Virus record (IMG/VR): IMGVR_UViG_3300028027_000266
Span: 1 to 21,709 of that record
DNA: 21,709 bases
Reading direction: 5' to 3' (one strand)
Source: a virus
Below the pieces are notes generated by a model, which was given only the letters and a program-made list of their open reading frames with translations, did not search any database and was not told the origin of the DNA. Within the stretch, counting starts at the first letter, position 1. Each line of letters opens with the position of its first letter. Positions 1-18,113 of this stretch are shown one piece after another. The translations under genes were made by a program, and so were the position numbers.

Positions 1-678
1 GAAGAAGAGGCAGAGGCTGAGCGTATAGCAGCAGAAGAAGAGGCCATTGCAAAGGCAAAAGCAGAGGCAGAGGCTGAAGCCCTTGCAGAAGAAGAAAGAA
101 TTGCGGAAGAGGCAGAGGCAAAAGAATTAGAAGAGGCGTTGGCTGAAGAAGAGGCTGCTGAAGAATTAAAAGAAATACTTGAAGAGGCAAAAGACGGTAA
201 AGAATTAACTGAAGAACAAAAAGAGGTTGTTGTTGAAGCATTGCTTGAAGATCTTAAGCCTGGAGAGTCAATATCAGCAGAACAAGTCCAGGCATCTGGA
301 GTTTCATATGCAGATCTACCACCTGAAACACCAATTGAAATTCGTACAGATGAAAATGGAAATGCATTAATTATTACAGCAGAGGTTGCTGCAAATGTAG
401 AATTGGTTCAAGATCCAGGAGCACTGTTAGAAGCAGTATTCACTGATCCAGGAGCAGCATTAGCAGCACTGGGAAGTATTGGTGCTGATATGACTGAGGA
501 AGAAAGAGAAGAAGCAACAGATATGGTTGTCGCAACAGTTGTTGCAACAGGAGCAGCAATAAATGCTGCAGCAGTGGCAGCAGGTGGAGCAACTGGTGGT
601 AGTACAGGTGGTGGAGGAAGTTCTGGTGGAGGCTCAGGCAGCAATTCACCAGGTTCAAGAGGAGGAAGAAAATGGTAA
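1..678 (+). CDS. 3' part of an Ala/Glu-rich, Gly-tailed phage protein (probable virion component)
   Basis: The frame is open at the left edge, so only the C-terminal 225 residues are present. Residues 1-75 are almost pure Glu/Ala with a few Lys, Arg and Ile, and look like a long helix or coiled coil. A more globular stretch follows (about 85-165) with alternating hydrophobic residues (TPIEIR, ALIITAEV). An Ala/Val-rich segment (about 180-200) leads to a Gly/Ser tail ending GSRGGRKW. The stop overlaps the next ATG. The repetitive helix and Gly-rich tail suit a phage structural or tail-associated protein, but that is inference from composition and position. TTG 139 is a possible start but not needed, because the frame continues upstream without a stop. 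Confidence 0.75.
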   Translation, partial: EEEAEAERIAAEEEAIAKAKAEAEAEALAEEERIAEEAEAKELEEALAEEEAAEELKEILEEAKDGKELTEEQKEVVVEALLEDLKPGESISAEQVQASGVSYADLPPETPIEIRTDENGNALIITAEVAANVELVQDPGALLEAVFTDPGAALAALGSIGADMTEEEREEATDMVVATVVATGAAINAAAVAAGGATGGSTGGGGSSGGGSGSNSPGSRGGRKW

Positions 679-851
679 GAATAGTAAAGAATATAATGAA
701 AGACCTAGTAGATCAGGCATGGACTCTTCTTGGAATGTTTATTGCCTGGGTTGTTTTGGACGGTAGCGCTAAGACTATTGTTGGTTATGGAATTATGGCA
801 ACCCTTGGTCTTTGGATTATCACTAGTCCTATTAGAAATAGAGAGGAGTAA
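672..851 (+). CDS. small two-helix membrane protein (holin-like)
   Basis: This 59-residue protein begins MVRIVKNIMKDL and has two hydrophobic segments, about residues 16-30 (WTLLGMFIAWVVL) and 37-50 (IVGYGIMATLGLW), with a charged C-terminus (SPIRNREE). Its ATG overlaps the end of the preceding gene, and the next gene starts 2 bases after its stop, so the three appear to be co-translated. Size and topology suit a holin or a small inner-membrane phage protein, but no sequence motif proves that role. Two more holin candidates lie in the window (854-1153 and 10788-11057). Confidence 0.75.
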   Translation: MVRIVKNIMKDLVDQAWTLLGMFIAWVVLDGSAKTIVGYGIMATLGLWIITSPIRNREE

Positions 852-853
852 AA

Positions 854-1153
854 ATGAACAGTATCACAAACATTTGGAATATTCTCATGCGTATCGTTGC
901 GGTATTTGCAGCAAATGCATTAGCAGTAATTGGTGCTGGTGCAATCGCAGGTATATCAGTAGCAAAAGCAATGACAGTAGCAGGCCTTAGCGCAGTAGCC
1001 GTAGTTGTTGAGAAGTTGGCTCGTGCATTTATGGATGACGGCAGACTCACAAGAGATGAGATCAATGCAGCATTTTCTACCACAGATAAAAATGCAAAAA
1101 CAGTGCAGGATGCAGTAGTTGAAACACGTAGAAAAAGATCAAAGATAGCATAA
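854..1153 (+). CDS. small membrane protein with charged C-terminal tail (holin candidate)
   Basis: The protein is 99 residues. Residues 12-52 form one long or two closely spaced hydrophobic helices rich in Ala, Val and Ile. The polar tail contains DDGRLTRDEINAAF and ends in a basic cluster (TRRKRSKIA). A Shine-Dalgarno sequence (GAGAGGAG, 841-848) precedes the ATG by 5 bases. The layout (N-terminal membrane hairpin, basic cytoplasmic C-terminus) matches many phage holins and comparable small actinophage membrane proteins. The function is inferred from topology only. The next gene has its own promoter, so this gene probably ends a transcription unit. Confidence 0.75.
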   Translation: MNSITNIWNILMRIVAVFAANALAVIGAGAIAGISVAKAMTVAGLSAVAVVVEKLARAFMDDGRLTRDEINAAFSTTDKNAKTVQDAVVETRRKRSKIA

Positions 1154-1173
1154 TTAAACATATTTGACCATGT

Positions 1174-1203
1174 TTGACAGCCCCTTCCAGGCAATGGTAT
1201 ACT
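1174..1203 (+). promoter_or_regulatory. sigma70-type promoter for the Ntn-hydrolase gene
   Basis: TTGACA (1174-1179) and TATACT (1198-1203) are separated by 18 bases, with a TGG extension directly before the -10. The predicted start leaves a leader of about 24 bases that contains GGGAGGGG (1219-1226), so the gene at 1234 is translated by the Shine-Dalgarno route. Confidence 0.8.
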
Positions 1204-1233
1204 TAAGTATATCTGTTTGGGAGGGGTTTCTGC

Positions 1234-1764
1234 ATGACTTGTATTGCAGTCGTTCGTGATGAAATAAATAATAAAATATACATGGCTGGTGATCGTGGTG
1301 CCTCAGATGACGGTACCATTTTAGCACTTACTAGTCCAAAGGTTTGGAAACTAGGACCCTACTTAATTGGATATGCTGGTGCTATGGATGGTGAGCGTAT
1401 TCGCTATAACTTTAATCCTTATGTTCCAGATATTAAAGATACAGATAAATTTATGCAGACTAAATTTATTAAACAACTTCGTGCATTTTATAATGATTTT
1501 TGGGTTGATACATCTAAAGATGGAGACCTTGGACTATTGATTGCAGTTCGTGGACAAATTTATGAACATAGTTCTGCAGATATGTCTTTATCTAAATATA
1601 CAGTACCATATCTTGCTATGGGTTCTGGAGCAGAATACGCATATGGATATTTAAATGCTACAGAAAAAGCAAAAGATGCAAGAAAACGTGTAGTTGGAGC
1701 AGTAAATGCTGCAATTAAGTTTAGTCCATCATGTATGGGCCCAGTTGACGTAGTAAGTCTTTAG
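1234..1764 (+). CDS. proteasome/HslV-like Ntn-hydrolase
   Basis: The 176-residue protein starts MTCIAVV. Removal of Met would expose Thr as the N-terminal nucleophile, as in HslV and proteasome beta subunits. AGDRGAS (18-24) corresponds to the family's (A/G)D.RAS loop with its catalytic Asp (D20). SPKVWKLGPYLIGYAG (34-49) carries the Lys equivalent to proteasome K33 (K36, or K35 after Met removal), followed by the usual small Gly-containing strand. Length is close to HslV (about 175) and shorter than actinobacterial proteasome beta. It has its own promoter and a strong ribosome site. The target is unknown: possibilities include virion or host protein processing, or a non-proteolytic amidohydrolase. 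Family assignment is fairly sure; function is open. Confidence 0.8.
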   Translation: MTCIAVVRDEINNKIYMAGDRGASDDGTILALTSPKVWKLGPYLIGYAGAMDGERIRYNFNPYVPDIKDTDKFMQTKFIKQLRAFYNDFWVDTSKDGDLGLLIAVRGQIYEHSSADMSLSKYTVPYLAMGSGAEYAYGYLNATEKAKDARKRVVGAVNAAIKFSPSCMGPVDVVSL

Positions 1765-1773
1765 GAGTATACT
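1745..1773 (+). promoter_or_regulatory. promoter giving a leaderless transcript of the 1780 gene
   Basis: TTGACG (1745-1750) lies 17 bases before TATACT (1768-1773) inside the end of the preceding gene. The ATG at 1780 follows the -10 after 6 bases (TTTAAT), so the predicted first transcribed base is the A of the start codon. AGGAG (1763-1767) could also serve read-through transcripts as a distant ribosome site (12 bases). Confidence 0.65.
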
Positions 1774-1779
1774 TTTAAT

Positions 1780-1971
1780 ATGCATAAAGAAGATGATATA
1801 GAAGATGCAGAGTTTGGTATCTGGTTAACAAGTGGTATTGAGCGGGGATGGATTTCAGACCCTTACTGTAACACTCATGATGGCGGATACGAATATATGG
1901 ATGAAGAAGAAGTTCAAGAATGGGAAGACGGTGGTGACCCATGTTGCCATGTAGTACGTCTAATGATATGA
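1780..1971 (+). CDS. small acidic conserved phage protein with Cys/His pairs
   Basis: This 63-residue, strongly acidic protein contains GIWLTSGIERGWISDPYC, then THDG, a run of Asp/Glu (DEEEVQEWEDGG) and DPCCHVV near the C-terminus. The spaced Cys and His residues could bind a metal, but the pattern matches no standard zinc finger I can name. Similar short proteins with DPYCxTHDG and GGDPC occur widely in actinobacteriophages as hypothetical proteins (from memory, not searched). It lies between the Ntn-hydrolase and the secreted protein, 9 bases before the latter. Function is unknown. Confidence 0.75.
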   Translation: MHKEDDIEDAEFGIWLTSGIERGWISDPYCNTHDGGYEYMDEEEVQEWEDGGDPCCHVVRLMI

Positions 1972-1980
1972 GGAGAAAAA

Positions 1981-2652
1981 ATGAAAGTTAGATCAATTAT
2001 AAGTTCAGCAGTAATGGTTGCAGCATCTGTAGTATTTATTTCAGTTGCTCCAGCACAAGCAGGAGAATGTTCAGCAGAGGATCCTTGTCAAACCTATGCT
2101 ATGGTAAATGATGCTGGGGTAGTTACAAATATCATTGTTTGTCAGCCATCAGTTTGTGGTTCTGGAACTTGGGCGGGACAAAGAGTTGTTCCACAAGTTC
2201 AAGCAAATCCTGAAACACATCAAAGTCAGGGTGGATATCTTGCAAACCCAGGATCAACCCCAATAACAGAATCTGATGGAAGATTCACTTTAACAAATGA
2301 TCAACCAATTGTTTCACAGACTACTCTAGAAGAAAATAACGTTGTTACAACTATTGAATCAACAGTCGGTCCTGGAACTCAAGAATCATTTACTTTCAAT
2401 GATACAGTTGGTCGGCCAAATGGTACACCAACTATGCGAAAAGAGCCTATGAAAAATTCTACATCGGCAACATTGTCTGTAACTGAATTGAGTAAATCAG
2501 AAACTCCAACAGTTCTTGCTAAAGAAATACTTACATTTAGTGAACGAAAGACTGAAGAGTTTGTTAAGTTAAAGGCACAAGTTGATACATTGCAAAGAAT
2601 TCTTCGCAACTGGGCAATTTTTAAGTCCAGTCTTACAGGATGGTTTTTGTAA
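1981..2652 (+). CDS. secreted phage protein with N-terminal Cys-containing domain
   Basis: The protein is 223 residues. It has a clear Sec signal peptide: basic MKVR, hydrophobic residues 6-22, and an AQA-GE cleavage site after A27. Four Cys (30, 36, 54, 59) in the first mature domain (ECSAEDPC and VCQPSVCGSG) suit disulphides formed outside the cytoplasm. The middle is Ser/Thr/Asn-rich and low in Cys, and residues about 185-223 form a helix (FVKLKAQVDTLQRILRNW) with a hydrophobic end (SLTGWFL). GAGGAG precedes the ATG. It may act at the cell envelope during infection or lysis, or sit on the virion. No enzymatic motif is visible. Confidence 0.75.
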   Translation: MKVRSIISSAVMVAASVVFISVAPAQAGECSAEDPCQTYAMVNDAGVVTNIIVCQPSVCGSGTWAGQRVVPQVQANPETHQSQGGYLANPGSTPITESDGRFTLTNDQPIVSQTTLEENNVVTTIESTVGPGTQESFTFNDTVGRPNGTPTMRKEPMKNSTSATLSVTELSKSETPTVLAKEILTFSERKTEEFVKLKAQVDTLQRILRNWAIFKSSLTGWFL

Positions 2653-2661
2653 TATAGGTTT

Positions 2662-2737
2662 TGGGCTGTAACTCAGTTGGTAGAGTGGCGAACTGTTAAT
2701 TCGCAAGTCGTAGGATCGAGGCCTACCAGCCCAGCCA
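2662..2737 (+). tRNA. tRNA-Asn(GTT), CCA encoded
   Basis: A full cloverleaf folds. The acceptor TGGGCTG pairs perfectly with CAGCCCA, and the D-arm is ACTC...GAGT with GG in the loop. The anticodon stem GCGAA/TTCGC holds loop CTGTTAA (anticodon GTT at 2695-2697), and the T-stem is GTAGG/CCTAC. Discriminator G and an encoded CCA (2735-2737) follow, as expected for Asn. Confidence 0.93.
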
Positions 2738-2738
2738 A

Positions 2739-2812
2739 GCGAATATTGCATAGTGGTAGTGCGTAACCTTGCCAAGGTTAATGTGCGAGTTCGATTCTCG
2801 CTATTCGCTCCA
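2739..2812 (+). tRNA. tRNA-Gly(GCC), CCA encoded
   Basis: It starts one base after tRNA-Asn. The acceptor GCGAATA pairs with TATTCGC, the D-stem is GCAT/GTGC, the anticodon stem TAACC/GGTTA holds loop TTGCCAA (anticodon GCC, 2771-2773), and the T-loop is canonical TTCGATT. Discriminator T and CCA (2810-2812) are encoded. The Hsp20 promoter lies just beyond its 3' end. Confidence 0.95.
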
Positions 2813-2817
2813 AAGTT

Positions 2818-2826
2818 TGGTATAAT
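2818..2826 (+). promoter_or_regulatory. extended -10 promoter for hsp20
   Basis: TGG-TATAAT is a consensus extended -10. No good -35 is visible because that position falls in the tRNA-Gly 3' half. The block TTTGGTATAATAGTA is almost identical to the endolysin promoter core TTTGGTATACTAGTA at 3353-3367. A leader of about 50 bases with GAAAGGGG (2870-2877) precedes the hsp20 ATG. Confidence 0.65.
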
Positions 2827-2883
2827 AGTACTGTATCTGCCTACGGGGGATACATTAACTTATTCGCTTGAAAGGGGAATAAT

Positions 2884-3300
2884 ATGGTAACAAAGTACGC
2901 TATGGATCTATTTAATGATCCCTTTTTTATTGGCTTCAACAGAGAGTTGAGTCGCCTAAATACAGCACATAAAACAAACTCACAGTCATACCCTCCGTAT
3001 GATCTTATCAAACTGGATGAAGATACATACAAGATTTCACTGGCTGTCGCTGGGTTTTCAAAGGACAATATTGATGTTTTAGTAGATAATGGAACATTAA
3101 TTATCAAGGGTGAGATTGTTGAAGTGACAGATGTAGAGGTAGTTCACAAGGGAATCGCAGGAAGAAAGTTTGTAAGATCTTTTGCACTGGGAGAGTACAT
3201 GGAAGTAACATCTGCAGAACTTAAGGATGGTATGCTACATGTTAATGTAGTACGCATTGTTCCTGAAGAAAAAAAGCCTAAGTCTATTAAGATAAAGTAA
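2884..3300 (+). CDS. Hsp20/alpha-crystallin small heat-shock protein
   Basis: The protein is 138 residues, usual for the IbpA/Hsp20 family. After a Phe-rich N-terminal arm (DLFNDPFFIGF) comes an alpha-crystallin domain at about 37-128: YDLIKLDEDTYKISLAVAGF, then ENID-like KDNIDV, LIIKGE, a basic RKFVRSF strand and the diagnostic GMLHVNV (116-122) before a Lys-rich C-terminus. Such proteins are ATP-independent holdases that keep unfolded proteins soluble, and they are common in cyanophages and other aquatic phages. A role in virion protein folding or in heat and assembly stress is inferred. It has its own promoter and a good ribosome site. Confidence 0.92.
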   Translation: MVTKYAMDLFNDPFFIGFNRELSRLNTAHKTNSQSYPPYDLIKLDEDTYKISLAVAGFSKDNIDVLVDNGTLIIKGEIVEVTDVEVVHKGIAGRKFVRSFALGEYMEVTSAELKDGMLHVNVVRIVPEEKKPKSIKIK

Positions 3301-3334
3301 TATCTAGGCTAATCTTTAAAACAACCTGAGCATG

Positions 3335-3363
3335 TTGCAAAAAGGCTCATTCTTTGGTATACT
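3335..3363 (+). promoter_or_regulatory. promoter of the endolysin operon
   Basis: TTGCAA (3335-3340) and TATACT (3358-3363) are 17 bases apart, with TGG directly before the -10. A leader of about 20 bases contains TTAGGAGG (3378-3385) before the ATG at 3390. Overlapping genes follow almost continuously to 11057, so this could be the main promoter of that stretch. Confidence 0.8.
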
Positions 3364-3389
3364 AGTAATACAAAACTTAGGAGGTTTTT

Positions 3390-4184
3390 ATGGCTGTCAA
3401 AGGCTCATTAGAAGCAATTATAGAAGTTGCAAAGAAAGAAGTTGGTACCATTGAAGGTCCAAAAGATAACGAAACAAAATATGGCAAGTGGACAGGTGCT
3501 AACTTTCAGCCATGGTGTCAGTCATTTGTTTCATGGACTGCATTTACATCAGGACTAGATCCAAAGAAGTATCCAAAGTCTGCATCAACAGTTGCAGCAG
3601 CAGATTGGTTTAAGAAGAATAACCGTTGGGCAGATGCTCGTAATGATGATCCAACTCCAGGGGATTGGATTTATTTTGATTTTCCAGATGATGGTGTAAA
3701 TCGTATTTCACATGTCGGTCTTTGCATTAAGAATAATGGAGACGGTACTATTCAAGTTATTGAGGGAAACACATCTGGAACTGCAAAGGGAGACCAGCGC
3801 AATGGCGGAATGTGTGTAGAGAAGACTCGTGCTTATGTAAAGAATAAGAAGGGTATCCTTAACGCTGTAGTTGGTTGGGGTCGACCAGTTTATACTGGAG
3901 AAGAAAATGCTCCATTGCTTTCTAAGGCTGGAACTGTTGCAGAGCCAGTTAAGTCTGCAGTAAAGCCAACAGTAAAGAAGCCAATAGCCTTTAAGCCGCT
4001 TAAGGCTGGATCAAAGGGTGAATCAGTCAAAATGATTCAAAAGTTTCTTAGCCTAAAAGTAGATGGAGATTTTGGTTCAGGTACTGCAAAGGCAGTTCAA
4101 GACTTCCAAAAAAAGGCAGGGATTCCAGTAACAGGAGTTGTTGATCAAAAAACACTCAAGTTAATAAAAGAAAGCAGAGGATAA
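3390..4184 (+). CDS. endolysin: CHAP/NlpC-like peptidase with C-terminal peptidoglycan-binding domain
   Basis: The protein is 264 residues. The catalytic part (about 1-165) has WCQSFVSW with nucleophile C43, PGDWIYFDF, SHVGLC with general base H108, and VIEGNTS with a polar third residue near 125-127. This order and spacing fit CHAP or NlpC/P60 cysteine peptidases that cut peptidoglycan peptide or amide bonds. A linker rich in Pro, Lys and Val (about 170-198) leads to a PG_binding_1 domain (about 200-262; GSKGESVKMIQKFL, VDGDFGSGTAKAVQDFQ). No signal peptide is present, so release would need a holin. It shares TAATG with the next gene. Confidence 0.9.
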   Translation: MAVKGSLEAIIEVAKKEVGTIEGPKDNETKYGKWTGANFQPWCQSFVSWTAFTSGLDPKKYPKSASTVAAADWFKKNNRWADARNDDPTPGDWIYFDFPDDGVNRISHVGLCIKNNGDGTIQVIEGNTSGTAKGDQRNGGMCVEKTRAYVKNKKGILNAVVGWGRPVYTGEENAPLLSKAGTVAEPVKSAVKPTVKKPIAFKPLKAGSKGESVKMIQKFLSLKVDGDFGSGTAKAVQDFQKKAGIPVTGVVDQKTLKLIKESRG

Positions 4185-4819
4185 TGATTAACACAGATAG
4201 TATTGAACTAATAAAGCCAACAGAGATTATTGGTGGATGCATTTCTATTTATAGAAATATTTGGGAAAATCCAAATGAAACAATTGAACAGATAGAAGCA
4301 TACAGCAATAATCCTAATGCTAAATATCCTTTTAAAAATGCATTAAACATTGAAGGACAAAGAATAACAAATAGAACTAATGAGGATATGTCTCTAACTG
4401 CCGCTGCTTCAGATGATGAAGTAATGAAGTCTTTATCAGATAGATTTTTTAAAACAGCCTGGTCAACAGCAATTGGGTATAACGAATACTATGAACTAGA
4501 AGAGCAGACATATTTTATAGAAGGTTTTAATATTTTAAAGTATCAAACAGGTACAGAGTATAAAGGACACTACGATGGTGGTAGTAAAAGTGGTAGATCA
4601 ATTTCTCCAATTCTATATTTAAATGATAACTACGAAGGTGGAGAACTTGAGTTTGTTAATTTTGGCATTAAGATTAAGCCAGAAGCAGGAATGCTTGTAT
4701 TGTTTCCAGCAACATTTCCATATAAACATATCGCTCACCCAGTAACCTCTGGAACAAAATATGCAATAGTAACTTGGCTACAAGATAGGCCACAAGATAC
4801 TTTAATGACTCAGATCTAG
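4184..4819 (+). CDS. 2-oxoglutarate/Fe(II)-dependent oxygenase (prolyl-4-hydroxylase type)
   Basis: The protein is 211 residues. The C-terminal half has the double-stranded beta-helix signature: YKGHYDGG supplies the HxD iron ligands (H129, D131), YLNDNYEGGELEF is the typical P4H strand pair, and HPVTSGTKYAIVTWL supplies the distal His (H185) and the 2-oxoglutarate-binding basic residue (K192). Family members hydroxylate protein side chains, commonly proline, and many aquatic phages carry them. The substrate here is unknown. The start codon overlaps the endolysin stop, so the two are translationally coupled, which is an unusual partnership. Confidence 0.88.
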   Translation: MINTDSIELIKPTEIIGGCISIYRNIWENPNETIEQIEAYSNNPNAKYPFKNALNIEGQRITNRTNEDMSLTAAASDDEVMKSLSDRFFKTAWSTAIGYNEYYELEEQTYFIEGFNILKYQTGTEYKGHYDGGSKSGRSISPILYLNDNYEGGELEFVNFGIKIKPEAGMLVLFPATFPYKHIAHPVTSGTKYAIVTWLQDRPQDTLMTQI

Positions 4820-4827
4820 AGTTCTAT

Positions 4828-5016
4828 ATGCCAGTGTATGAATATAACTGCAGCGGTTCTTGTGAAGGAGTTGTAAATAAAGTTCGAGGTATTTCTGAAA
4901 ACGACCCAGGGTATGATTGCGAAACTTGCAATCTACCGCTGGTTCGTATATACTCTACTATAGGAGCAGTTTTTAACGGCAGTGGCTTTTATGTCACAGA
5001 CAATAGAAAGAAGTAG
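4828..5016 (+). CDS. FmdB-type zinc-ribbon protein
   Basis: The 62-residue protein starts MPVYEYNCSGSCEG, close to the MPxYEYxC..C start of the FmdB/CxxC_CXXC regulatory domain. A second pair CETCNLPL completes a four-Cys zinc ribbon, followed by the family's tail (VRIYSTIGAVFNGSGFYVTD). The first knuckle reads C-x3-C, one residue wider than usual. Members are small and often annotated as putative regulators, and they are frequent in actinobacteria and their phages. No DNA-binding evidence is visible beyond the zinc motif. Confidence 0.85.
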   Translation: MPVYEYNCSGSCEGVVNKVRGISENDPGYDCETCNLPLVRIYSTIGAVFNGSGFYVTDNRKK

Positions 5017-5023
5017 TATACTT

Positions 5024-5278
5024 ATGTTTACAATGATTAAAGAAAAAACTGAAGTTGATGGATGGATTCTTGGAGCAACAGATCGCTGTGATTCATGTGC
5101 AGCAGAAGCACTTGTCAAGGTAACTGGTTTAAACGGTGATTTAATGTTTTGTGGTCACCACTATAATAAGATTATAGATAATCCAGAAGGTTACGCTAAA
5201 ATGATGGCATTTATGATTACCATTATTGATGAACGTGACAAACTAATTGAAAACAAAGCAAAAGGAAAAGACTACTAA
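5024..5278 (+). CDS. DUF7455-like small zinc protein
   Basis: I place the start at ATG 5024, giving 84 residues; the frame is open back to 4982 but that would overlap the FmdB-like gene. After an N-terminal arm comes DRCDSCAAEALVKVT and then LMFCGHHYNK, so CxxC plus CxHH can bind zinc, followed by a helix (MMAFMITIIDERDKL). This C-x2-C...F-C-G-H-H arrangement is typical of a short protein found throughout actinophages and actinobacteria (DUF7455, from memory). Its stop shares TAATG with the nuclease start. Function is unknown. Confidence 0.78.
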   Translation: MFTMIKEKTEVDGWILGATDRCDSCAAEALVKVTGLNGDLMFCGHHYNKIIDNPEGYAKMMAFMITIIDERDKLIENKAKGKDY

Positions 5279-5685
5279 TGTATGAATACTATGTAAGAAA
5301 AGTAGAGAATGTTGTAGATGGAGACACCATTGACGTTCTTATTGATTTAGGGTTTGATATCCTATTTGCATCTCGTGTAAGATTGGCTGGTATTGATACC
5401 CCTGAGTCTCGCACAAAAGATCTTGCTGAGAAGGCCCTTGGTCTTGAAGCCAAGGAGTACCTAAAGAAGTCTCTCAAGGATGCTAAGTCTGTTGTTATTA
5501 AGACTGAAAAAATGGACTCATCTGAAAAGTATGGTCGCATTTTGGGTTGGGTATACGTAGATGGCAATACCGTATCTCTTAATGACATTATGATCAATGA
5601 TGGCTATGCATGGGGATACCTTGGAGATACTAAGGTTAAAGACTTTGCCGCTCTTAAAAAGGCTAGAGCAAAATCAGGTAAATGA
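5278..5685 (+). CDS. staphylococcal-nuclease-like (SNase/thermonuclease) protein
   Basis: The protein is 135 residues and consists of the SNase OB-fold alone. Motifs in order: VVDGDTIDV (Ca-binding Asp and Thr, 12-20), VRLAGIDTPES (catalytic R35, then D40, T41, E43), EKYGRILGWV (second catalytic Arg, R87) and LNDIMINDGYAW. All active-site residues are present, so it should be an active Ca-dependent nuclease. No signal peptide is visible, so it would act in the cytoplasm, for example on host DNA or RNA, or be released at lysis. Its end overlaps the thioredoxin start (ATGA). Confidence 0.93.
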   Translation: MYEYYVRKVENVVDGDTIDVLIDLGFDILFASRVRLAGIDTPESRTKDLAEKALGLEAKEYLKKSLKDAKSVVIKTEKMDSSEKYGRILGWVYVDGNTVSLNDIMINDGYAWGYLGDTKVKDFAALKKARAKSGK

Positions 5686-5936
5686 ACCATATATTTTATT
5701 TTACTGCTGACTGGTGCAATCCCTGTAAAAAGACAAGACCTATTGTTGAAGAACTAAATCGTGAATCATCAGAGGTCAGATTTCAAATAATTGATGTTGA
5801 CATTGAGGGCGAACTGGCTAGAGGGTTTGGTATTAAATCTATTCCAACATTTATAGTAATTCAAGATGGGCAAGAGATTAAAAGAGCCACTGGGGCACAA
5901 ACAAGAGAGCAACTAGAGGGGCTAATGAAACTGTGA
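5682..5936 (+). CDS. thioredoxin-like protein
   Basis: At 84 residues this is a minimal thioredoxin fold. It has FTADWCNPCKK with active-site Cys 12 and 15 (WCNPC rather than the usual WCGPC), the central strand FQIIDVDIE, and the cis-Pro motif IKSIPTFIVI (P55) followed by DGQEIKRATGA. It should be a cytoplasmic dithiol reductant or glutaredoxin-size thioredoxin. Phage thioredoxins often serve ribonucleotide reductase or a polymerase, but neither partner is in this window. It overlaps the SNase by ATGA and the next gene by GTGA. Confidence 0.92.
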   Translation: MNHIFYFTADWCNPCKKTRPIVEELNRESSEVRFQIIDVDIEGELARGFGIKSIPTFIVIQDGQEIKRATGAQTREQLEGLMKL

Positions 5937-6268
5937 GCAATGAAGAAGATAGCCTTATTGATGATTTGATTTTAGCAGGTGGGCTAGAAATTTCAGGTAT
6001 AGATGAAAAAAGTGGAGAATTCTTATACACTATTACTAACAAGATGAAAGATCTCATGCCTGAACTATATGAAGACCACCTGGCCCACGTTAATGAAGAG
6101 GTTATGAAGTTGTGGGAAAAAGGATTTGTTAATGTTGACATGATGAGTGAAGATCCACTTGTTACCCTTACAGAAAAAGCATATGATATTAATGAGATTT
6201 CTAAACTAAACAAAGAGGAATTGTGGTCATTAGAAGAAATTAAGCGCATGCTTGGTCCTAAAGTCTGA
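5933..6268 (+). CDS. conserved phage protein of unknown function
   Basis: The 111-residue acidic protein starts at GTG 5933, whose GTGA overlaps the thioredoxin stop. Its sequence (DDLILAGGLEISGID, EFLYTITNKMKDLMPEL, VMKLWEKGFVNVDM) reads as a compact alpha-helical protein with a short beta hairpin. Comparable proteins occur in actinophages and other aquatic phages near virion genes, but I know of no assigned role. Its stop codon TGA forms the TG of the extended -10 of the following gene. Confidence 0.75.
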   Translation: MSNEEDSLIDDLILAGGLEISGIDEKSGEFLYTITNKMKDLMPELYEDHLAHVNEEVMKLWEKGFVNVDMMSEDPLVTLTEKAYDINEISKLNKEELWSLEEIKRMLGPKV

Positions 6269-8833: not shown

Positions 8834-9127
8834 ATGAAGCAGCACTTATGGAAAGATGATGCTCCATGTAAAGATTTAGACACAAACTTATTTTTTGATA
8901 AATATGAAGAAGTTGTAGATACAAGATTAATGGTTGATTCTTTATGTATAAAGTGTCCACTTATCTCAAGATGCTTTGCTGTTGGTATCTCTGGTAAGGA
9001 GTGGGGAGTTTGGGGAAGTGTATACTTAGAAGATGGAAAACCATCTAGAGAATTTAATAACCACAAAAGTAAAACTGACTGGGCCAACACTTGGCAGACA
9101 CTGACTATGGAGCATAATGAAAAATAA
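8834..9127 (+). CDS. WhiB-like (Wbl) iron-sulfur transcription regulator
   Basis: The protein is 97 residues. Four Cys in the Wbl pattern C12-x25-C38-x2-C41-x5-C47 (PCKD ... LCIKCPLISRC) would bind a 4Fe-4S cluster. The hallmark turn GVWGS (58-62; usual form G(V/I)WGG) follows. The C-terminus lacks a long basic AT-hook-like tail. Wbl proteins bind the primary sigma factor of actinobacteria and redirect transcription, and phage copies such as the mycobacteriophage TM4 WhiB can repress host whiB genes and exclude superinfection. This is the strongest host indicator in the window. It overlaps the following gene by 11 bases. Confidence 0.92.
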   Translation: MKQHLWKDDAPCKDLDTNLFFDKYEEVVDTRLMVDSLCIKCPLISRCFAVGISGKEWGVWGSVYLEDGKPSREFNNHKSKTDWANTWQTLTMEHNEK

Positions 9128-11111: not shown

Positions 11112-11819
11112 ATGACATACCTATATGAAAATCAGGTAAGACCAAAGTCTAAGACTGCACTAATCATGTGTACGTACATTAGACTTGAAAACATGCCTAA
11201 AATTATTCAAAGACTTCAAAACCAAACCAACAAACAGTTTGATTTTTATATATCAAACAACTGCGAGAATAAAGATAATAAACTTATTGGTTATTTTAAT
11301 AAATATGGAGAGGATTTTGGAACTAATGTATTTATTAAAAATTATCAAAACAAGTATAAACAATTTTCTAGATTTTACCTTGCAAGAGATTTAGCAAAAG
11401 AGGGTTATGAAAAGATAATCTTTGTAGATGATGATGAGGCCCTGCCATCAACTTTTATTCAAGACTGCTACGATCAGTATGATGAAAATCAAATTAAATC
11501 TTTTTATGCCCACAATGTTGAAAAAGATTATTGGAAAAAAATTAGACTTACTAAAGGTGAGATAGGTAACTACGCTGGCACAGGTGGCCTAATCTGTTCT
11601 GCTAAAATATTTTTAGATGATAAACTATTTGAGTGCCCAGAAGAATACCATATCATTGATGACTTGTGGTTTTCTTATTATATTTTAAAGTATACTCAAT
11701 ATAAGATAACATTATTGGATACAAATATTCAGTTTATTAGAGATGATAAGGGTACATTTGTTCACCTAAAAGATCTTAAAAGAAAATTTTCAACTGAGTA
11801 TATTTTGAATAACAGTTAA
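11112..11819 (+). CDS. GT-A type glycosyltransferase (family 2-like)
   Basis: I choose ATG 11112 (235 residues); the frame extends to GTG 11082, but that lies inside the terminator hairpin. The protein opens TALIMCTYIRLENMPKIIQRL and FDFYISNN, the usual first strands of a GT2 nucleotide-sugar domain. It then has KIIFVDDDEALP (DxD metal motif) and GNYAGTGGLICSAKIF before IIDDLWFSYY, the acceptor-side acidic motif. No membrane segment is present, so it is cytoplasmic. No Shine-Dalgarno sequence or clear promoter precedes it. Its 3' end overlaps the convergent gene by 30 bases. Substrate unknown. Confidence 0.82.
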   Translation: MTYLYENQVRPKSKTALIMCTYIRLENMPKIIQRLQNQTNKQFDFYISNNCENKDNKLIGYFNKYGEDFGTNVFIKNYQNKYKQFSRFYLARDLAKEGYEKIIFVDDDEALPSTFIQDCYDQYDENQIKSFYAHNVEKDYWKKIRLTKGEIGNYAGTGGLICSAKIFLDDKLFECPEEYHIIDDLWFSYYILKYTQYKITLLDTNIQFIRDDKGTFVHLKDLKRKFSTEYILNNS

Positions 11820-12836
11820 ATACTTATCTCTTAATATATCAATATCAAAATGTTTTAATGCTATCTCATAGGCTTTTTTCTTCTGATCTTCTTTGTTGTT
11901 ATCCTCAACATAATTATCAATTAAGTTGGCTAACTTTTTTGGATTAGCAGAATAAACATCAAGCCACATGCGTGTTAAAAGTTTGTCAGTTTTATTTGAT
12001 TCAACAAGCCACTCATTTGGCAGAACAAAATTATTTGGAGATATATCTGTCATAAATACTGGTAGGCCACTCATTAAAGACTCATTCATTGGTAAGCATA
12101 GGCCAGCATATCGCCTTGGAAGAACCATGGCATCAAATCCACTATAAAGGTCTGCATTGCTATCTGTATTTGATATATCAATAGTTAGTCTAGGATCTTT
12201 GCAATCTGTTTCTATTGGAGTTTGACTTTTAATAACTAACTCATAGTTGGCGGTAGAGTATTTAAGCATATCTATAACAGTGCTAGTACCATTTCTATCT
12301 TTAGATGCAAACTTACCAGCAATATGAAGTATTCTATTATGAGTTTTTGACATATTATTTTCTCTTGGTACCATAAAATCATTTGGATCTATTGGTGGGG
12401 CTAAATGTGCAACCTGTGCCCTATCCTCAAGAACTTCTTTTACATGTTCTAGATTCCACACACTAGGGGAGAGCAGCATGGTTGGAGCCATTTGGTTATC
12501 ATCATTTATTAAATCTAAAAATTCATAGTTATATTGATTAATTGTTTTTATATTTCTTTTTTCTGCAAGGGGAAGGAATAAACTGCTATAAAAAGATTCA
12601 CAGGTAAATACAACATCTAGATCACGAAGGAAAGCAACAATCTCTTCCTTTGATGCAAAGCCTCTTTTAGTTGTTATACATGGATAGCCTGCATACCATT
12701 CAGGATGCTGCTTGTTTTCATTAAATGGTCTTGAGTCAATAAGAAGGATCTTGTCTGGTTTTAGCATATTAACTATATTTCTTGTTTGATTACCTAAACC
12801 AGTGTTATCTGATCTTGCAATGATTCCTAGTCTCAT
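11790..12836 (-). CDS. GT-B type glycosyltransferase (GT4-like)
   Basis: The 348-residue protein starts MRLGIIARSDNTGLGNQTRN, a typical GT-B N-terminal strand and Gly loop. The C-terminal Rossmann half includes RILHIAGKFASKDRNG, YELVIKSQTP, the YSGFDAMVLPRRYAGLCLPMNES stretch (231-253) and SGLPVFMTDISPN, equivalent to the donor-binding E-x7-E region of GT4 (E252; the second Glu is replaced by Asp/Ser residues). ATGA overlaps the upstream cassette gene. Sugar and acceptor are unknown. It is the last gene of the minus-strand cassette and converges on the 11112 gene. Confidence 0.82.
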   Translation of the reverse strand: MRLGIIARSDNTGLGNQTRNIVNMLKPDKILLIDSRPFNENKQHPEWYAGYPCITTKRGFASKEEIVAFLRDLDVVFTCESFYSSLFLPLAEKRNIKTINQYNYEFLDLINDDNQMAPTMLLSPSVWNLEHVKEVLEDRAQVAHLAPPIDPNDFMVPRENNMSKTHNRILHIAGKFASKDRNGTSTVIDMLKYSTANYELVIKSQTPIETDCKDPRLTIDISNTDSNADLYSGFDAMVLPRRYAGLCLPMNESLMSGLPVFMTDISPNNFVLPNEWLVESNKTDKLLTRMWLDVYSANPKKLANLIDNYVEDNNKEDQKKKAYEIALKHFDIDILRDKYLTVIQNILS

Positions 12837-13594
12837 TCAGTATACCCCCAGGCCTCATCATCTACTGTAAACTTTTGGGTACCTTCACGACCATCTAAAT
12901 GATACGAACGTTTAATATTTCCTTCTGGGTGGTATATCCAAAGTTTGTGTTTGTCCCAACCCTCTTCATCAAACTCACCATAAGGCAAAACATCATCTTG
13001 AACTTTTCCATGAAACCTATCCTCAATAAAAGTTTTATCATCGCAAAAGGGAAGAACAACATCTCTATAATATTTAACTGTACTTAGGTGTGGACGTTGA
13101 CTCCATTGAGCAGTTTTCATAAAACCATCATCAAGTCCAAACATTAAATGTTCGTGTGGTTCAGGTATCACTGCCTCAAAATGAAATCTAATGGTGTTAG
13201 CCTTTTCATATTCAAGCATATCTAGACATTTTTGCCAATCAATTTCATGGTCTGGAGTAATTGGTGCATCTCCTTCAACATAAAGCATTGCAGAAGTATT
13301 AATAATATCAATTGTTTCTTTCATCATTGTTGTTTGATGGCTATGCTCATTAAAAACTATTGGTAAAACATTTTTCCACTCATGTAAACACTTCCATAAA
13401 ATTCTATTTTTATATTCATCGTAATCTATTTTACGAGACATGCGTTCTTCACGCAGACCATCCATTTGTAAAACAATTTCGTTGTTAGGAAAGTGAACTC
13501 TAATAGTAGAAATTGTTTCATCAATTATCTTAGTATTTGGATGGCTTGGTAAAACAGAAGTAGCAACAACAATAGTTACATCATTTTTATTCAT
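12833..13594 (-). CDS. glycosyltransferase-like GT-A protein
   Basis: The protein is 253 residues. It begins NDVTIVVATSVLPSHPNTKIIDETISTI, the usual GT2 first strand and helix, followed by NEIVLQMDG. Around residue 100 MLYVEGDAPI supplies an acidic ExD motif in the place of DxD. The C-terminal half is rich in aromatic and acidic residues (FIEDRFHGKVQDDV, KLWIYHPEGNIKRSYHLDG). The fold assignment rests on the N-terminal pattern and context. It overlaps the neighbours by 4 (ATGA) and 8 bases, so it is clearly part of the cassette. Confidence 0.75.
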   Translation of the reverse strand: MNKNDVTIVVATSVLPSHPNTKIIDETISTIRVHFPNNEIVLQMDGLREERMSRKIDYDEYKNRILWKCLHEWKNVLPIVFNEHSHQTTMMKETIDIINTSAMLYVEGDAPITPDHEIDWQKCLDMLEYEKANTIRFHFEAVIPEPHEHLMFGLDDGFMKTAQWSQRPHLSTVKYYRDVVLPFCDDKTFIEDRFHGKVQDDVLPYGEFDEEGWDKHKLWIYHPEGNIKRSYHLDGREGTQKFTVDDEAWGYTE

Positions 13595-14441
13595 AGAGAT
13601 CCCTCATTACTTTAATAGAAAAATCTCTTTTATATTTAATCCACCAACACACAACCTGATGCATATTATTTGGGTAATTATTAATAAGATTAGGAAGCAT
13701 TTCTTGCAGTTGATTCCAGTTTTTAACTTTTTCAATTGGAATTCCTGCAGGGTAAACATAGTTAAAATAATCAGTCATTTCACCCTTAGAGTCAACACGA
13801 TCACCAATAGGCAAAGCCAACATCTCAATAGCCTCAAAGAATCTAAAGGTGTCTATAACTTGGGCACCAGCAGGGGCTGGAACAACCCTAGCCTTTGATA
13901 GAGTGCGGTAGTAGTCTTTAGGCTGTTCTCCCTGGGCAAAGCCTTCTGTGGGCTTATAAAGGGCATTTGGTAGACTTGGCATGACTTCTGCTAACTGTTG
14001 TCTACGTTGATGTGTTATTTGTCCACCAAAATAAATATCATATTCTTTAACAGGATAATCAGGCAAGTTAGACTTTAAATGCTGTGGCGGACCAATAAAA
14101 AATTTATTATATTTTTCATGTTTTTGATGTGGATACTGAACCCAAATAGAGATATTGGGGTGACCAATTTTGTCTACATTAAATTGAGCGCTTTCGTCAC
14201 CAGTTATAAACAAAACAACTCTATCAAGATTTTTTAATTGGTTTGATATTTCTTTTTCTTTACCAGCATTGCCATGTCCAGGTATGACAACAAAGCCACG
14301 ATCTGCTTTTGGTATTTCTTTTACAACCAATTGATTAACATTATTTTTTTCAAATGTCTCTTTAAGTAGTCCATAGTCCCATTTTCCATCTGCAGCATCA
14401 AGTGGATCAATAGAATATATATATGCTTTAGGCTGATTCAT
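13587..14441 (-). CDS. exostosin/GT47-like glycosyltransferase
   Basis: I choose ATG 14441 (284 residues, MNQPKAYIYSIDP); an in-frame ATG at 14459 adds six residues (MRFIFI) without a ribosome site. The N-terminal half has Rossmann-like strands (GFVVIPGHG, RVVLFITGDES). The C-terminal half contains YDIYFGGQITHQRRQQL and DYYRTLSKARVVPAPAGAQ followed by DTFRFFEAIEMLALPIGD, matching the donor-site pattern of exostosin-like enzymes (..P.G....R..EA...G.iPVi). Substrate is unknown. It overlaps both neighbouring cassette genes. Confidence 0.75.
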   Translation of the reverse strand: MNQPKAYIYSIDPLDAADGKWDYGLLKETFEKNNVNQLVVKEIPKADRGFVVIPGHGNAGKEKEISNQLKNLDRVVLFITGDESAQFNVDKIGHPNISIWVQYPHQKHEKYNKFFIGPPQHLKSNLPDYPVKEYDIYFGGQITHQRRQQLAEVMPSLPNALYKPTEGFAQGEQPKDYYRTLSKARVVPAPAGAQVIDTFRFFEAIEMLALPIGDRVDSKGEMTDYFNYVYPAGIPIEKVKNWNQLQEMLPNLINNYPNNMHQVVCWWIKYKRDFSIKVMRDLYE

Positions 14442-15153
14442 AATAAAGATGAACCTCATGCTGATAGTCTAAAATTGTTTCGGTATATCCTAGTCCCTTG
14501 GTCCATTGTCTAAGATTATATAAAGATTCATCCCATTGCTGCAACATAAACTCAGGGTGTCCAGACAGCCAGATCTTGGGTTTGTACTCTCTAAGTACCC
14601 TCTCAGCCCCTCCCAGAACCCTCCATTCACTGCCCTCTACGTCCAACGAAATGGCAGTAGGTGGCTTAATGCCATGATCATAAACACAAGAGTCTATTGT
14701 TATCTGACCATAGGTATCTCCTTCAAGATATAACTCTTTAAATCCATGTGCTGCTTCAATTACATCATTAACCTCTGGTGGCCATTCGTTATAATATATT
14801 CTTGAAAGATCATTTATCTTATCAGAAGCAAAACCAGGAATACATACCATAGGAAGTTCTAGGTTGTTTGCTGTCCAAGTTGCAGGAAAATGTGACCACA
14901 CTTTAGGGTTTGGTTCAAATAAAACTACTTCTGCTCCCCACATTTGGCAGAGTGCTGGAAACTCTCCTTCTTCTGCACCAACATAGTAAACAACATCACC
15001 TTTGCCAATGTTTTGGTGCATTGACTTTAGTCTAGGCTTTTCCCAACCTTGTTGCTCATACCATTCAGGTCTATCTGCACGGTGTTTAGGCAGCATCATT
15101 TCAAACTCTCCGTTTAAAACTGCTTTAACCATTTCTGTCATTTTTGTATCCAT
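14428..15153 (-). CDS. FkbM-family SAM-dependent methyltransferase
   Basis: The protein is 241 residues. GDVVYYVGAEEGEFPALC (52-69) is the SAM-binding first strand and Gly loop, VVLFEPNP (76-83) carries the acidic residue at the end of strand 2, and AISLDVEGSEWRVLGGAERVL (split at 171-176, DVEGSE) is the FkbM signature, followed by PKIWLSGHPE. FkbM enzymes O-methylate sugars and other hydroxyls. In this cassette a sugar methyl cap is the likely product. Start is ATG 15153, or ATG 15141, which would give an ATGA overlap with the epimerase stop. Confidence 0.88.
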   Translation of the reverse strand: MDTKMTEMVKAVLNGEFEMMLPKHRADRPEWYEQQGWEKPRLKSMHQNIGKGDVVYYVGAEEGEFPALCQMWGAEVVLFEPNPKVWSHFPATWTANNLELPMVCIPGFASDKINDLSRIYYNEWPPEVNDVIEAAHGFKELYLEGDTYGQITIDSCVYDHGIKPPTAISLDVEGSEWRVLGGAERVLREYKPKIWLSGHPEFMLQQWDESLYNLRQWTKGLGYTETILDYQHEVHLYYESA

Positions 15154-16022
15154 TCCATAAGGGATACCTTTGGCATCCAGCCAGTTAAATCTTTAAACTT
15201 TTGATTTGATGCAAGAGTTTCCTGAACTTCCCCAACTCTTGGCGGTATAAACTTAACATCATTTGAAATCATATTAGCAATATCAAGTATAGAATAGTTA
15301 CTTCCATACCCAATATTGTATACCTCTCCAAATCCATCTTTAACTTCAGATGCAAGTATATTTGCTTCTACCACATCAGATATGTGTGTAAAGTCTCTGC
15401 GTTGAGATCCATCTCCAACTACTGTTAGTGGTTTTGACTCATGATATTGTTTTAAGAATAGCCCTATTACTGGAGCATACTGTCCTTTTAATGGCTGCCT
15501 ATCTCCATAAACATTAAAGTATCTGAGCGATATAGTTTTAAGACCATAAAGGTTATAATAAACTTTTGCAAGGTTTTCACCAAAAACTTTAGCAGCAGAG
15601 TATGGTGTTAGTGGGTCAGATGGCTGTGTTTCTATGTTTGGAAGTATTGCCTTCTTGCCATAAGCAGAGGATGTACTAGAATAGATTAGCCTATCTATAT
15701 TGTTTACCCTACAAAGTTCAAGAATATTGGCTGTCCCTACTGCATTTGAATGAATGGATTTTTTAGGATTTAGTATTGCTGGCTGTATTCTTGCATCAGA
15801 TGCAACGTGAAATACGCAGTCAACATCCTTAAAGAGTGGAGCAATTAGATCATAATCACAAATATCATACTTATAATTTTGTGCCTGATCATTCCAATAG
15901 AATTGATCATGACATTCTGCAGACTCATCATCAATACAAATCACATCATGGCCAAGATTAATTAACTTATTAACTAAGTTAGATCCAATAAAACCAGCAC
16001 CACCAGTAACTAAATACTTCAC
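15138..16022 (-). CDS. NAD-dependent nucleotide-sugar epimerase/dehydratase (extended SDR)
   Basis: The protein is 294 residues. It has TGGAGFIGS (6-14, NAD-binding GxxGxxG), FHVASDARI, the catalytic region YSSTSSAYG (114-122) with YSAAK (Y141, K145), and LRYFNVYGDRQ, followed by VVGDGSQRRDFTHISDV and the usual C-terminal substrate region. This set is typical of UDP-glucose 4-epimerase or UDP-sugar dehydratase-like enzymes; motifs alone do not fix the sugar. It presumably makes the activated sugar used by the surrounding transferases. ATGA overlaps the 16019 gene upstream. Confidence 0.92.
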   Translation of the reverse strand: MKYLVTGGAGFIGSNLVNKLINLGHDVICIDDESAECHDQFYWNDQAQNYKYDICDYDLIAPLFKDVDCVFHVASDARIQPAILNPKKSIHSNAVGTANILELCRVNNIDRLIYSSTSSAYGKKAILPNIETQPSDPLTPYSAAKVFGENLAKVYYNLYGLKTISLRYFNVYGDRQPLKGQYAPVIGLFLKQYHESKPLTVVGDGSQRRDFTHISDVVEANILASEVKDGFGEVYNIGYGSNYSILDIANMISNDVKFIPPRVGEVQETLASNQKFKDLTGWMPKVSLMEWIQK

Positions 16023-16972
16023 TTAATTTCCAACACTTCTAAGATATTTTTCCATCTATTAATATATGTATGGTCTACTTTTGTTCTTTCATGACCAGCC
16101 ATACGAATAGTTTCTCTTTCTTCTTCATGCTCTAGATAATAATTAATCTTTTCTTCTAGATCTTTTAAATTTCCATGCTCATATAGAACAATCTCTTTGT
16201 CTGTAAAAAGATCTTCAAGGCCCTTGATTCGAGGGTAGATAGTAAATGCTCCACGACCAGTACTCTCAAACATTCTATCACTTGTATAGTAAGGATAGTT
16301 AAATCCAATGTTAAGACTATCACCAATTGCTATCTTGCTGCGAGCATAAATCTTGTTTAGTGCATCCCCACGAACTGTTCCTGTGTCACCATCGCCACCA
16401 ACATGAAGAAAACGTTTTCCATATAATGATCTTAGGTGGTTTATTAGTTGTGGTCGATAGGGATATTCTGGGTGATAACCCTTGCTTCCAACAAATATAA
16501 CATCATAGTCAAAGGTATTATCATACGCTGGATGAATATAGCATTCTTTATCGTATACACCAGCAGGAAGAAAATGTCCTTTCACTTCTGTATTTTCATT
16601 AAACCAATCAGTCATTAACTTATCTGTAGCAAAGAAATGACCAATGGTTTTATAAAATGGATCCTCTTCAAGATCTTTTTGACGCTCAATACCAAACCAT
16701 AAATCAAGATGGTATGTCATTGTTGGAATGTTTGCTTCTTTTAGTTTAATTAGAACATCTTCCATACCGATATTTCCTGGAGTATCCCAGCCGTGTGTGT
16801 GAACCCAGATAAATAAATCACTCTCTAATGATTCCCCAAGGATGCGCTGGCTCCTTGCCTCACGTTCTTGCATTTTAACGACGGTATGTCCAAGGGATTC
16901 CAAAGACTTTACGTGATGATTCTCACTACTATAGTCAACACCAAAGTTACCTAAGAAAACAATTTTAGCCAA
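16019..16972 (-). CDS. GT-B glycosyltransferase (CgeB/Glycos_transf_1_2 type)
   Basis: The 317-residue protein is read from TTG 16972 (MAKIVFLGNFGVDYSSENHHV), with GGGG 6 bases upstream; no ATG lies nearby. An N-terminal Rossmann-like half (KIVFLGNFG, SDLFIWVHTHGW, MTYHLDLWFG) is followed by YDVIFVGSKGYHPEYPYR and a C-terminal donor half with KIAIGDSLN, TSDRMFESTGRGAFTIYPRIKGLEDLF and a final helix (HEEERETIRMAGHERT). The latter is characteristic of the Glycos_transf_1_2 (CgeB-like) domain. It is the first gene of the six-gene minus-strand cassette. Confidence 0.85.
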   Translation of the reverse strand: MAKIVFLGNFGVDYSSENHHVKSLESLGHTVVKMQEREARSQRILGESLESDLFIWVHTHGWDTPGNIGMEDVLIKLKEANIPTMTYHLDLWFGIERQKDLEEDPFYKTIGHFFATDKLMTDWFNENTEVKGHFLPAGVYDKECYIHPAYDNTFDYDVIFVGSKGYHPEYPYRPQLINHLRSLYGKRFLHVGGDGDTGTVRGDALNKIYARSKIAIGDSLNIGFNYPYYTSDRMFESTGRGAFTIYPRIKGLEDLFTDKEIVLYEHGNLKDLEEKINYYLEHEEERETIRMAGHERTKVDHTYINRWKNILEVLEIK

Positions 16973-17885: not shown

Positions 17886-17887
17886 AG

Positions 17888-17960
17888 TACCCCTGGCAGG
17901 AATCGAACCTGCGACGCATGGCTTAGAAGTCCATCGTTCTGTCCACTGAACTACAGAGGT
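17888..17960 (-). tRNA. tRNA-Arg(TCT), no CCA
   Basis: On the minus strand ACCTCTG pairs with CAGGGGT, the anticodon loop is CTTCTAA (anticodon TCT, 17927-17925), and the T-arm is GCAGG-TTCGATT-CCTGC. Discriminator A is followed by CTT, so CCA must be added. It reads AGA codons, which are abundant in these AT-rich genes. Confidence 0.93.
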
Positions 17961-17964
17961 GTAG

Positions 17965-18035
17965 TAGGCCTAGAAGGTAATGCTCCTTCTTCTCAGGATT
18001 AAAAGTCCTGAGCATCACTTTAATGCTTTAGGCCC
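17965..18035 (-). tRNA. tRNA-Lys(TTT)-like, atypical D- and T-loops
   Basis: The cloverleaf folds fully: GGGCCTA/TAGGCCT (first pair G-U), D-stem GCAT/ATGC, anticodon stem CAGGA/TCCTG with loop CTTTTAA (TTT), and T-stem GAAGG/CCTTC. However, the T-loop is AGCATTA instead of TTCRANN, and the D-loop TAAAGTG lacks GG. No CCA is encoded. It lies 4 bases from each neighbouring tRNA. It may be a divergent functional tRNA, a decoy, or decaying. Confidence 0.7.
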
Positions 18036-18039
18036 TTAG

Positions 18040-18113
18040 TACACCAGGTAGGACTTGAACCTACGATAACCGAATTATGAGTTCGGGGCCTTAACCAACT
18101 TGGCTACTGGTGC
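18040..18113 (-). tRNA. tRNA-Met(CAT) (or Ile2), no CCA
   Basis: On the minus strand GCACCAG pairs with CTGGTGT (first pair G-U). The D-arm has TTGG, the anticodon stem CCGAA/TTCGG holds loop CTCATAA (CAT), and the T-arm is GTAGG-TTCAAGT-CCTAC. Discriminator A is followed by CTA. The CAT anticodon could also be a lysidine-modified tRNA-Ile. Confidence 0.92.

Follow-up and report, generated by a model that had tools for sequence, protein, structure and literature searches.

The question raised by this locus is what a small proteasome-like peptidase, apparently free of any ATPase, does for a phage, and from which RNA it is made. The DNA analysed, hereafter the window, is the whole 21,709-nt stretch of IMG/VR virus record IMGVR_UViG_3300028027_000266, and the gene under study lies near its start. 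A first-pass annotation made from the sequence had read it as an Ntn hydrolase of the proteasome/HslV type that keeps the catalytic Thr, Asp and Lys.

Catalytic residues, constraint and predicted fold

1234..1764, + strand: proteasome-like Ntn hydrolase gene, 176 aa (coordinates as in the first-pass annotation)
Residues of the 1234..1764 product: nucleophile Thr2 (Thr1 once Met is removed), Asp20, Lys36, oxyanion-hole Gly46 and G130-S131-G132

The product begins with MTCIAVV and carries the motifs MTC, GDRGAS and SPK, and on alignment its T2, D20 and K36 match Thr1, Asp17 and Lys33, with G46 as the equivalent of the oxyanion-hole Gly47. These four residues are invariant in an alignment of 28 rows that includes cellular proteins and reaches down to 22% identity, T2, D20 and K36 being present in 28 of 28 rows. 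Among 106 distinct close relatives Thr2 and Lys36 are found in every protein (106/106), Gly46 and Gly130/Ser131/Gly132 are also without variation, and Asp20 is kept in 100, with Glu in its place in six. The earlier reading of an intact proteasome/HslV-type triad is borne out by this alignment and this conservation. The triad begins right after the start Met, without a propeptide, and the Asp166/Ser169 pair of proteasomes is absent from the peptidase alignment, as it is from the HslV sequences compared. Moreover, none of 159 close full-length copies, which encode 106 distinct proteins, has an internal stop, the median dN/dS is 0.094 (95 pairs of close relatives), and, as judged from these sequences, the gene is under strong purifying selection.

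AlphaFold2, run on the 28-row alignment, gave a model with a pLDDT of 91.9 and a pTM of 0.88, in which strands are followed by helices at 52–59 and 70–88, further strands, helices at 133–142 and 149–163 and a final strand. The predicted fold is the Ntn alpha-beta-beta-alpha sandwich, which is the fold that the first-pass annotation had expected. The best solved match to the model is the beta-proteobacterial proteasome homologue BPH (5ovs, 5ovt, 5ovu), with Z 19.9 and 2.4 Å over 165 residues at 20% identity and with model residue 2 on Thr1; HslV structures (1m4y, 6kr1, 1g3i) follow with Z 18.7–19.7, and there too model residue 2 falls on Thr1 or the residue that corresponds to it. BPH differs in being a cellular protein with a longer and acidic pore loop (PMC8665760). 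Many enzymes that are not proteases use Ntn folds, and connectase is a proteasome relative turned ligase (PMC8665760), so the protein might be an amidohydrolase or a ligase of that kind. We regard this as improbable, however, since the model has a compact HslV-like layout and lacks the insertion that connectase has between strands 3 and 4.

Place among the proteasome homologues

The nearest annotated family is phrog_1040 of PHROGs, labelled peptidase HslV family, which matched residues 1–175 with E = 1.1e-20; this is the peptidase's PHROGs family, but the HslV in its label does not fit the protein. The score against HslV TIGR03692 was 13.8 bits, far below the cut-off of 157.75, so the protein is not HslV proper. 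HslU was not found either. Pfam Proteasome PF00227 gave 16.1 bits, below its threshold of 22.4, and TIGR03690 (PrcB) gave no match. A profile built from 12 diverse members reached HslV 1m4y (1.8e-13) and BPH 5ovu (2.5e-13), with the alignment starting at Thr1.

The protein falls into group I of the proteasome homologues treated by Fuchs, Alva and Lupas 2021 (PMC8665760). Two phage-encoded kinds, PPH and AAH, were already described there: PPH, the phage/host proteasome homologue, is a protein of ~140 aa without helix H2, and AAH is likewise present in many phages, though none specific to Actinobacteria was found with it (PMC8665760). The present protein shares with PPH that it is phage-encoded, group-I and of the proteasome-like family; however, it has 176 aa and its model places H2 at 70–88, and thus the description of PPH does not apply to it. 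With AAH it has in common the compact group-I form, both H1 and H2, an MT start without a propeptide and occurrence in phages. In size and in predicted helices it is nearer to AAH, as described in that paper, than to PPH. In a structure comparison with predicted viral proteins, AAH-sized phage proteins match the model at TM 0.84–0.89, a protein of Gordonia phage Daredevil at 0.78, and Caulobacter phage proteins of 131–146 aa only at about 0.6. Because of the Daredevil match, the window peptidase is not the sole actinophage example.

The window clade differs from AAH in forming a long separate branch, with 22–31% identity to cellular copies. In the tree it lies outside those copies with support of 100/99, a position to which the usual warning about long branches applies, and the protein is not grouped with PrcB. 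Cellular relatives were recovered with a three-sequence alignment as the query (Actinoplanes, Catenuloplanes, Streptomyces, Salinibacterium, Nitratireductor, Firmicutes and others) and none with a single sequence; their taxonomic spread fits the distribution of AAH. A profile search of 296 Actinobacteriota for homologues returned the seed genome only, hence homologues are rare in hosts and a recent host-to-phage transfer is unsupported.

On the viral side, a single-sequence query found 493 relatives in the viral collection. Matches at E 0.01 or better were obtained in 149 phage records, among which T5-like phages of Salmonella and Escherichia form the largest group. When the Vibrio and Tunturiibacter phage proteins served as queries, scans gave no matches, and a DNA-level search of annotated phages returned tRNA and other small matches only. 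Phage proteasome homologues are widespread, and in the literature we found none characterised and no biochemistry of any phage member of this family. Since phage copies of such peptidases have been described (PMC8665760), the window gene is another member.

A promoter embedded in a leader hairpin

1174..1203, + strand: sigma-70-type promoter TTGACA-18-TATACT with extended TG, 11/12 matches, kept in 37/43 upstream regions
1171..1232, + strand: near-perfect inverted repeat from the −35 box to the Shine-Dalgarno, −30.6 kcal/mol, the strongest hairpin in the window
1219..1226, + strand: Shine-Dalgarno region GGGAGGGG, within the 3′ arm of the hairpin

The gene had been credited with its own strong promoter; a promoter of its own is indeed predicted, the TTGACA-18-TATACT element being the best match within 1–6000. 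What is new in the window, and its freshest point, is that this promoter is embedded in a hairpin. On folding, the −35 and spacer region pairs with the Shine-Dalgarno. Folding energies average −26.4 kcal/mol in 45 distinct leaders of the hairpin class and −8.0 kcal/mol in the other 58; the hairpin is absent from these 58 of the 103 distinct leaders, and the promoter is kept in most of those that were checked. Arms pair better with their own partner than with arms shuffled among relatives in 500 of 500 permutations (relatedness uncorrected), and RNAalifold gave four hairpin pairs with changes on both sides. Pairing between the promoter region and the ribosome-binding site, as predicted from sequence, is a feature of the window gene's branch. 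An intrinsic terminator is not favoured as the role of the hairpin, which has no T-run after it.

RNA begun at the embedded promoter would lack the 5′ arm of the hairpin, and in read-through RNA from the upstream genes the Shine-Dalgarno would be sequestered. We infer that the hairpin may gate translation in this way. Expression is probably confined to the gene's own promoter, because in read-through RNA the Shine-Dalgarno would be masked by the hairpin, and the peptidase would then be translated mainly from RNA begun there. A similar arrangement is known from T4 gene e, where the 5′ part of a hairpin contains the promoter and the RBS is hidden in longer transcripts, and the same has been proposed for T4 soc, 49 and I-TevI (PMC3014915). 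The peptidase gene likewise has its promoter in the 5′ part of an RNA hairpin that would hide the RBS, but that promoter is sigma-70-like, whereas a T4 late promoter takes its place in T4. The peptidase of this locus is small, has no propeptide and apparently no ATPase, and comes with a clear candidate for an expression switch.

Host, neighbouring genes and candidate partners

854..1153, + strand: 99-aa ORF upstream of the peptidase, weak holin match
1780..1971, + strand: acidic 63-aa ORF directly 3′ of the peptidase, near it in 145/159 related loci
2884..3300, + strand: Hsp20 small heat-shock protein, nearby in 16/18 related records and 130/159 loci
3390..4184, + strand: endolysin with CHAP and peptidoglycan-binding domains
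8834..9127, + strand: WhiB-like regulator, a marker of an Actinobacteriota host

WhiB proteins are described as confined to Actinobacteriota (PMC10202952); the window encodes one, and therefore the host is an actinobacterium, as had been supposed. A WhiB match above cut-off is present in 16 of 18 related records, and the window clade, with hundreds of viral contigs, represents an AAH-sized homologue in WhiB-encoding phages. The WhiB-like protein of the window has GVWGS in place of the GVWGG of its relatives.

With such a host, in a phylum some of whose members have proteasomes, the peptidase might insert into, replace or poison the host 20S proteasome; replacement of host subunits or interference with them had been raised in the first-pass annotation, on the ground that Actinobacteria have their own proteasome. 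Among the 198 Actinobacteriota sampled, only 91 gave a proteasome-family match, and the listed genomes below 2 Mb mostly have none, which weakens the case for the host proteasome as target. Moreover, in profile searches and fold comparison alike the protein comes closest to BPH and HslV, not PrcB. We consider such interference very unlikely.

The statement that no ATPase partner is visible holds up over a wider set. AAA_2 domains (the HslU/ClpX class) were not found in the window or eight relatives, records which may be fragments, and no AAA domain scored above cut-off in 18 related records, possibly fragments as well. A host ATPase could still be the partner, and the HslV-like size and the lack of a detected phage ATPase would suit pairing with ClpX, ARC/Mpa or another unfoldase of the host. 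However, no HslV is listed for Actinobacteria by Fuchs et al. 2021, and no AAA+ partner was found to co-occur with the new homologues (PMC8665760), so we hold this pairing to be unlikely.

Gene order bears on the further suggestion that the peptidase processes virion proteins in head or tail maturation. In related loci a structural-type protein usually comes first, followed by small ORFs, then the peptidase, the acidic 63-aa ORF (which has no family match) and Hsp20, with the endolysin downstream or directly upstream of the peptidase. In a 112-kb relative (L016/G001) the peptidase gene follows packaging and structural genes, with terminase upstream and an 813-aa structural-type protein, and lies close to lysis genes, which would suit such a role. 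The same genome, however, has a head maturation protease (phrog_9427, 2e-104) that adjoins a virion structural gene ~46 kb from the peptidase, and an S78 protease match is present in 4/4 large relatives, so a prohead-protease role, as proposed earlier for virion processing, is unlikely; a head protease beside the capsid gene was rejected as the identity of the peptidase, the S78-type protease filling that place in relatives. In proteobacterial phages, moreover, the homologues lie amid nucleotide-metabolism genes. Taken over head and tail, we give virion processing a small chance. The same large relative carries, just 3′ of its peptidase (L016:8732-9490), a 253-aa ORF with a phrog_3677 protease match (E 2e-15), and no ORF of this type was seen at the corresponding place in the window.

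The reading that we favour, and think probable, is that this actinophage gene encodes a stand-alone, ATPase-independent group-I threonine peptidase of BPH/AAH-like type, made mainly from its own promoter. Removal of Met1 would expose Thr1, the subunits would assemble into a BPH-like ring, and the ring may cut peptides or unfolded proteins in an ATP-independent way, perhaps together with the phage Hsp20. A broader proposal, which we put forward as doubtful, is that the clade has a two-part ATP-independent proteostasis module, in which a BPH-like peptidase ring acts with the phage Hsp20 as holdase, and the peptidase, with its embedded sigma-70 promoter, is insulated by the hairpin from the upstream late genes.

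Elsewhere in the window there are five tRNA genes, at 2662–2812 (Asn, Gly) and 17887–18113 (Arg, Lys, Met), and a sugar-modification cluster on the minus strand at 11790–16972, with glycosyltransferases, an FkbM methyltransferase and an epimerase, which is rare in related loci.
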